Source of the DNA: Scatophagus argus
Lineage: Eukaryota; Chordata; Actinopteri; Scatophagidae
Length of the DNA: 64,000 nucleotides
Direction of reading: 5' to 3'
Assembly: GCF_020382885.2 (NCBI RefSeq)
Contig: NC_058494.1
Span: 12,294,001-12,358,000 of the forward strand
The translations under genes were made by a program, and so were the position numbers. The notes beneath the pieces are model-generated. The model worked only from the letters and a program-made list of their open reading frames with translations, had not been told where the DNA came from and did not search any database. Shown piece by piece: positions 28,701 through 31,700 of the stretch. Positions within the stretch are counted from its first letter, which is position 1; each line of letters opens with the position of its first letter.

Positions 28701-31700
28701 CCATGTTTACTAGCTTGCAGTCTTCCATCACCTTTTTTTGCACAGTGCTGCACATCAATTCATAACATAGTGGCCTCTGCTGACTGAGTATCTTATCACC
28801 TGCATGTGTGCATGTGCACACACACCACAAACAAAACAAGAAATCATTCTGATGAAAACACCACGCCTCCACACAGAACCGTTAATTAATAAAAATAAAT
28901 CATTCATCACAAGTTAAAGAAATAAGATCATATGTACCAATTCTTTCCTCCTCTGGGATGCTCATGATTTGAAAGGCGTCCATAGTCTCTGTGAACAGGT
29001 CCTTGTCCTGCTGGCCAGGAATCGTCACATTTCCACTGGACAGGAAACGGTACTTGCTGTAATCCTCCAGACACAGCTCCGCTAGATGGTGAAAAAGAGA
29101 ACAGAGTTACATATGCAGAATAAACTATTTTAAACGATTTGTTAAACAGGGATCTAGAGATACGTTACAAACTTCGTATACCTTCAGCTTCAGGCACAAA
29201 TACCGGAAAGGAGATGCTAATTTTCTGAACAGAAATTTTCAACTCAGGCAGAGCTACTTCCTGTATAGCTTGGCCACTGACTGTTAAATAGAGATGGGTG
29301 ACACACCCACGCAGCCAAAAAGTCATTTGCACCCTGGTTGCCAAACCAAAAACTCAAAGTATACGTCTAATAAATTTTTCCCCCAAAGATTTTTCTGATA
29401 AGTTTGGTTTTAATTATACTGTAGATCGATCCCACAACAGATGTTTCATCTTGGCTCTTATACTGCTAGTCACGTTCAACCACATTTTATTTTTTTGCTT
29501 CTTTCTGCAACGCTCTATCGCATAGCCCAGTTTGATACATTCAGACTGTAAGGAAATGTCTCACAGCGTAGTTTGTCCCCTGCACCAGTCAGCATGTAGT
29601 AGAAGATGTGGAAGGACCTCTCCTCTTTAGCTTGTCGAATGGCCCGAGACTTCTCCAGCAGATCTGATAACATTTCAGTCAAGGATAACCAAATGCAAGA
29701 GCAAACACAGCAGGACAACAACCGTAGTGCAGAAAAAAGACGAGTGATGGTAATGTGATTAACTGCACCACTAAAGGACAGGTAGCACTTGCACCTGCAT
29801 TTCTACACAGCCTCGCGGCCCTGCCCTCCAGGTGTCAAAAAATTGTTTCATTTACTAGCTTAAATACTGTCAACTTCTCAGCTGATATCAGGCTGACAAT
29901 GAACTTGTCCTGAAAGCAAATTTGCTGAGTCAAATTATCACAAATTAACATGAGGCAGCAGGTTACAGTACATTTGCAGTATGTAGATTGTGACCGGCAT
30001 TCTGTAACTCTTGCCAAAATGAGTCGGGAGAAGTGTATTTATGGCTGGGCCGGGGGGGGTCAACAAGGCTATTTTTTTTTTATTTTTTTATAAAAGGATG
30101 CAAGTTTCAATGTTGGCTCCAACGATGTATCCATTGACGTCAAAGTTGATCCTAATAAATTTTCCCTACAAGAGATAAATGAAAATATTTTGATATGCAG
30201 CACTACATCTTATGATGTTTTTAAGGTTGAAAACATTGAAATGTGGTGTTAAAGTAATACTCGATAACTAATGGCATTCATTCCACCTTTATTTTCATGT
30301 TGGAAATAAGTTTTGTGTTATTTAGAAAAAAATGTAAGATTTGAGAGGCTTACAAATCTTGATGAGTTGTCATTCTTGACAGTCTTTGCATTGCCGAAGG
30401 CCTCCAGGATGGGGTTTGCTTGCAGCAGCTGTTTCTCCAGCTCCCCCTGACATCGAAGACATAGTGACAGAGCAAACTATAGACTCCAACAACACTCCAT
30501 CATGACATTGAGGTGGATATTAGTCAACCAACTTTAAATCATGCATTTTCTCGCTATGCTGCAGACTGTTCATTGGTGAATACAAACATGCGCAATAACT
30601 TGTTCAGCAAAAGGAAAAAAAAAAAAAAATTCAGGTTGCAAATTTAAAAGAATCACCTCAGGGGATGTTATCATTGCCCAATCAGCAACACACACACACA
30701 TATACAGAATCTTACACATTCCAACGGCATAGCAAGCCCACTCAAGCACAAACACCCTGTAAGACCATCCCCGTCCATGCAGGCACAAACAAGAGAACAC
30801 AAGCAGCACACAAGCTGGTTAGCCAAGATCCCCCCAAAGGAAATGCAGGAGTACACCATGACACTCCAAAAAACAGTTACATACAACTACATAAAAAAAA
30901 AAAAAGAAAAACAAGACTGACCAGACTGAGAAAAGAATAGCTGCCAGGTTCTGTCACTGGATACAGCTTTTCAAACACTAAGGTGTGTTTCAGTGTTTAA
31001 GACAAACCTTGGATAGAGTTACTGCTCAGCAGCTCTGCTGTGTCGCCAAAGGCTGAGCAGATGTGTTTCTATATCATCTGAACCCATGGAGTCATTATTA
31101 TCAATGGAAAATATTTTTCATATTTTATACTCAAAACTTAAAATGGTAAATTTTACCATTTTGAGATATGGGGAAATCTGCATATTTTCTTTCTTTCCAC
31201 ACATACACACAAATATCCCCTTTCAAACATCTATGCTAAATATGAAGCTAAAGCCAGCAGGCAGTTAGCTTTGCTTGCTCTGCTTAGCAGATAGACCAAA
31301 GATAAAGTTACAAAACATAAAAGTGTAAAAATGTCATGTTGTTATTTAACTGGGAAGGAAGGGATGTGCAGGACTATTTGGTGTTTTTTTTGTTTGTTTT
31401 TATTCAAATGAGACTTTATGAGTTGATAGGTAGATTTGTTTTGCTTCAGACAGGCTAGGGGCTTGCCCCAATTTTAATGTCTAAAATCATTTAAATCAGA
31501 AGCATATCTTTTTCAAAATGACCACCTTGGTATAAAGCCACATGTTTTACTTACTGACGTTTAATGCATTTCCTTAAAAGCCCAAAGAGAACAGAATGCT
31601 TCTTGTTAGTAAAGCAATGCATGTATATAAACGGTCAGACACCATGCATATGGAGTCAGAGGGATGAACTCACATGTGATAAAACCGTGGTGCCCTGGAG

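Follow-up and report, generated by a model that had tools for sequence, protein, structure and literature searches.

U12-type introns, which are removed by the minor spliceosome, are defined as a class by their donor and branch sequences (PMC3584512), so that GC-AG termini are no bar to membership, GT-AG and AT-AC being the usual ends rather than the defining trait. Introns of this type with GC-AG ends have been described in a few settings. The human LZTR1 gene has a "unique" GC-AG minor site that is affected by depletion of CENATAC and that lost in competition with GT-AG sites within a P120 minigene (PMC8280824); the Drosophila gene SF3A1 (CG16941) is listed with a GC-AG U12-type intron in a paper that counts GC among the canonical donors (PMC2831892), and evidence of a further GC-AG U12-type intron has been given for Acanthamoeba (PMC2846911). 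In Table 2 of PMC7367187 such introns make up 0.61% of the annotated U12-type introns in human and 5.3% in fly, and amongst fish 0 in zebrafish, 0.80% in Tetraodon and 4.3% in Takifugu; the same paper notes that many non-canonical termini of U2-type introns in some genomes are misplaced annotations.

GC-AG minor introns are established, and the intron described here, intron 7 of the MYH9 motor domain in the fish Scatophagus argus, is a further case and not a new kind. A sequence-only reading of the locus had called a GC-AG U12-type intron rare; the rarity stands, but the type was already in print and the human case has been compared in a minigene. MYH9 intron 7 shares its termini with the minor intron of LZTR1, which lies in another gene and was studied by experiment, whereas the MYH9 intron is known from sequence alone (PMC8280824). 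With the SF3A1 intron it shares the GC-AG subtype of the U12 class, although that is an insect gene whose intron is marked in the table as absent from human, with GT-AG in mammals mentioned in the text (PMC2831892). Amongst the listed papers on minor introns that also concern MYH9, MYH10, MYH11, MYH14 or myosin, none was on this intron as judged from titles and the beginnings of abstracts; the main texts of PMC2831892, PMC10639083, PMC6717393, PMC9501576, PMC10853781, PMC2846911 and PMC6865273 contain neither "myosin" nor "MYH", and the main text of PMC7367187 does not contain "myosin". GT-AG versions of this intron may well be catalogued in supplementary tables or in U12DB.

The intron lies in a window of 64,000 nt, the whole stretch of DNA that was analysed, which corresponds to C2:12294001-12358000 of the 570-Mb S. 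argus genome. Exons 1-17 of the myosin motor domain were modelled on the minus strand (24000..33868) and encode 715 aa in an open frame; exon 17 was modelled just to 24000, and collinear matches to an eel protein (P0003, first 1200 aa), which is named "hypothetical" in its source and is MYH9-like by match, run on to 20280. The earlier description as a myosin heavy chain gene stands and its name can be narrowed to MYH9, as human myosin-9 heads the solved-structure matches of the motor domain (9ihl, 9syu) and fish MYH9 or myosin-9-like proteins lead the named database matches (among the best 120 of 7989, where some of the top ones are unnamed). In translated matches over a 10-kb stretch the summed score puts MYH9 barely ahead of MYH11a (1048 vs 1034) and identity clearly favours MYH9 (83 vs 71 percent). 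By its best matches the gene is identified as a putative MYH9, which encodes the non-muscle myosin IIA heavy chain.

A 21-nt micro-exon candidate (31674-31694, minus strand), which encodes GTTVLSH and is flanked by CTCCAG and GTGAGT, also lies between exons 5 and 6. A matching insert of 7 aa is found in three fish MYH9-like proteins (STATLSH in P0003, SSSVLSH in P0004 and GSAVLSQ in P0096) and is missing from P0002 and P0054; the micro-exon is probably an optional loop-1 insert.

Intron 7 (29664..30101, minus strand) is a phase 1 intron of 438 nt that separates exon 7 (30102..30165, 21 residues plus T) from exon 8 (29565..29663, AT plus 32 residues plus T), begins with GCATCCTTTT and ends with TTATCAG. 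Exon 7 ends with GCCAACATTGAAACTT at 30102 and exon 8 starts with ATCTGCTGGAGAAG at 29663, the codon for Y is split between AACATTGAAACTT and ATCTGCTGGAG, and the peptide spliced across the junction is identical to that of human myosin-9. The boundary cannot be slid, since the last base of the intron is G and that of the exon T, and the first base of the intron is G and that of exon 8 A; a shifted junction is ruled out by these mismatches at both ends. The junction that had been given previously (30102/29663, phase 1, with TATCAG at the intron end) was exact in coordinates and letters and is fixed by the protein alignment. The GC start had likewise been read correctly, the assembly having C at +2, and the segment is present in a single full copy, an observation that counts against an unresolved second haplotype there, though not against a base error.

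The 5' splice site GCATCCTTTTAT (30090..30101, minus strand) carries the U12 core ATCCTTT from +3 to +9, with the C at +2 being base 30100. Against the consensus GTATCCTTT the donor scores 8/9, and its core 7/7. The branch site ATCCTTGAC (29678..29686, minus strand) matches TTCCTTRAC at 8/9 and places the branch A at 29679, 15 nt before the intron end, which is slightly long compared with the optimum of 11-13 nt given in PMC6717393; the 3' splice site is CAG (29664..29666, minus strand) and appears to lack a clear polypyrimidine tract. A recount therefore agrees with the original claim of a donor that departs from the U12 pattern only at +2, paired with a near-perfect branch site. Amongst the 16 modelled introns of the motor domain the U12 signals are confined to intron 7: the other 15 are GT-AG with donor cores of 1-3 of 7 and best branch sites of 5-7 of 9. 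The termini of intron 7 are GC-AG, unlike the GT-AG or AT-AC of nearly all U12-type introns. Between -20 and -4 it has the lowest pyrimidine fraction of the 16 (0.53, the others 0.65-0.88), although this is a weak measure that overlaps between the U12-type (0.53-0.76) and U2-type (0.47-0.94) paralogs described below.

Neither motif is enriched in the window as compared with shuffles, where ATCCTTT has 11 matches (12.8 expected) and TCCTTRAC has 3 (5.1 expected). The donor core occurs at 11 of 127,980 window positions and a U12-like branch site precedes 19 of 8,619 AGs, which if multiplied as independent gives ~2e-7 for their coinciding at the protein-fixed ends; the true odds are less extreme, as the criteria were fixed once the intron had been seen and the intron was itself picked from those of the window. 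It is the joint presence of the two motifs at protein-fixed boundaries, and not either motif singly, that exceeds chance, and the comparison with paralogs is stronger evidence than these odds. A second GCATCCTTTT at 34493 (minus strand), upstream of the MYH9 start codon, is probably due to chance.

Paralogs were sought in the genome with the exon 6-8 peptide and 27 stretches were taken (L039-L065), in 23 of which both intron ends could be read; 7 of these, including the window gene, are non-muscle/smooth and 16 are sarcomeric-type, the labels being drawn from sequence pattern (sarcomeric: ADI/LEDQI) and translated matches. Outside the 23, L063 gave a donor only (GTAAGT) and L049, L058 and L059 are off the donor pattern, and further myosin loci, both sarcomeric-type and unclassified, lie outside the count. 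In all 23 the intron is preceded by T and interrupts the same codon position. Each of the six further genes identified as non-muscle/smooth, a second MYH9-like copy among them, has a U12-type donor that starts GTATC, while none of the 16 sarcomeric-type paralogs has a U12-type donor at this site. By translated matches over 10-kb stretches the second copy, at C16:5.78 (donor GTATCCTTGG), groups with MYH9, those at C16:21.66 (GTATCCTTTT) and C2:7.47 (GTATCCTGTC) group with MYH11, and those at C2:12.20 (GTATCTTTTT) and C16:6.2 (GTATCCTCAC) group with MYH10; the sixth, at C9:16.2, is non-muscle/smooth and also carries GTATCCTTTT, but groups clearly with none of the three. The six GT-AG introns (L043, L044, L052-L055) thus share position, phase, a U12-type donor, a U12-like branch site and a CAG or TAG end with MYH9 intron 7, and differ in that they begin GT where it begins GC.

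Across the seven non-muscle/smooth genes the donor core scores 5-7 of 7, some paralogs being weaker than the window gene outside +2, and the best branch site scores 7-8 of 9 at 13-19 nt before the intron end. The sarcomeric-type introns (L039-L042, L045-L048, L050, L051, L057, L060-L062, L064, L065) share the position and phase but differ in having U2-type donors, namely GTAAG (9), GTGAG (6) and GTACG (1), with donor cores that score 0-4 of 7 and branch sites that score 4-7 of 9 at best; as L051/L065 and L046/L061 are near-identical pairs the 16 genes are not independent. Donors part the two groups cleanly whereas branch scores touch at 7, a 7/9 branch match being found in one sarcomeric-type intron and also in one U2-like intron of MYH9. 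The U12 typing of the paralogs therefore rests on their donors. The U12 type proposed for intron 7 in the sequence-only reading is borne out both by its own motifs and by the six paralogs, and as these are U12-type with GT at the same site, intron 7 appears to be a U12-type intron that was inherited and whose +2 base has changed in this MYH9 copy. Within one myosin II family a single intron position carries U12-type donors in all 7 identified non-muscle/smooth genes and U2-type donors in the 16 sarcomeric-type genes with both ends read, a class difference within one genome. A scan of genome contigs for ANIET codons followed by GYATCC, intended to reach orthologs, returned just five prokaryote contigs (four metagenome-assembled and one isolate), which are taken as chance coding matches, and the same scan of viral contigs returned none. 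One further myosin sequence in the genome, an intronless myosin head, lies in an open stretch of 2062 aa (L001, C19:346580-348613).

Sequences for parts of the minor spliceosome are found in the genome. U11 has one match (C17), U12 snRNA has a match on C16 and a second on C4, U6atac has a match on C3 and a weak second match, and the U11-48K zinc-finger family has three matches, this family being matched also in 1 of 14 control genomes. The intron 7 donor can pair through +4 to +10 with the U11 5' end AAAAAGGG (7 nt) and through +4 to +9 with the U6atac stretch AAAGGAGAG (6 nt), G-U being allowed in both. In the paralogs the U11 pairing reaches 8 nt in two and just 4 in another two, so that the intron 7 donor is among the better-paired sites. 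As both helices run unbroken from +4, position +2 lies outside them; according to PMC3584512 the first three bases of the intron are left unpaired by U11 and are recognised by U11-48K, and a change from T to C at +2 is therefore plausible as a tolerated weakening.

The explanation that best accounts for these observations, to which we give a probability of roughly 0.87, is that intron 7 is an inherited U12-type GT-AG intron, common to the non-muscle/smooth myosin II genes, in which GT has become GC in this MYH9 copy and which the minor spliceosome would still remove. U11 and then U6atac would pair without a break from +4 to +10 or +9 respectively, U12 would pair with the branch site TCCTTGAC, and +2 would be read by protein (U11-48K) only, such that C may weaken recognition without abolishing it; splicing at GC would then be expected to be somewhat less efficient than at GT. 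It had also been proposed that motor protein output would depend on the minor spliceosome, which is a fair inference and would hold equally for the six GT-AG paralogs.

Intron 7 is a clear candidate for addition to the small known set of GC-AG minor introns, and the genome offers a natural control for it, the GT-AG sister copy. Programs whose U12 models cover GT-AG and AT-AC only (as for the matrices described in PMC7367187) may misplace this junction. It might further be supposed that the GC end is kept as a functional throttle, where a weak donor arose after duplication of MYH9 and is maintained by selection, output tracks U6atac or CENATAC activity through retention of the intron to a TAA, and the other copy (GTATCC) escapes; this we regard as unlikely.

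The alternative that survives best, although it is unlikely, is that a GT-AG U12-type intron is the normal state of the species here, the C at +2 (base 30100) being either a private allele or an error of the assembly. The base rests on one assembly, all six other non-muscle/smooth paralogs have GT, and the T of GT is the sole U12 donor letter that is missing. However, with GC-AG at 0-4.3 percent of U12-type introns in the three fish tabulated in PMC7367187 some such introns may be expected per genome, far fewer base errors would be expected at this one site, and the segment is in single full copy.

It is very unlikely that the GC donor has lost all or nearly all of its function, in which case this MYH9 copy would yield mainly unproductive RNA, through retention or through skipping of exon 8. 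Retention would meet an in-frame TAA (30088..30090, minus strand) after four codons (...IETCILL*), exon 8 at 99 nt is a multiple of three such that its skipping would keep the frame and remove 33 motor residues, and the second MYH9-grouping gene on C16 is present. Against this, the 17 modelled exons keep an open motor frame whose product closely resembles other MYH9 proteins, the remaining donor-core letters are all kept and the branch site is 8/9. The use of a nearby GT donor instead is rejected, as neither exon 7 nor the initial 150 bases of the intron contain a GT with a U2 donor score of at least 6 of 9; three U2 donors of 6/9 lie further into intron 7.

The least probable alternative, that intron 7 is a U2-type GC-AG intron which merely resembles the U12 type, draws on most GC-AG introns being U2-type (PMC7072748, PMC7367187) and is rejected, since the sequence around the donor, CTT|GCATCC, agrees with MAG|GTRAGT at only 3/9 positions (by eye), no other modelled intron of the gene has as low a pyrimidine content and the non-muscle/smooth paralogs carry U12-type donors.

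Finally, elsewhere in the window there are five matches to the histone 3' stem-loop (3076-11530), on both strands, which suggests that a small histone gene cluster is located in the same window as MYH9.
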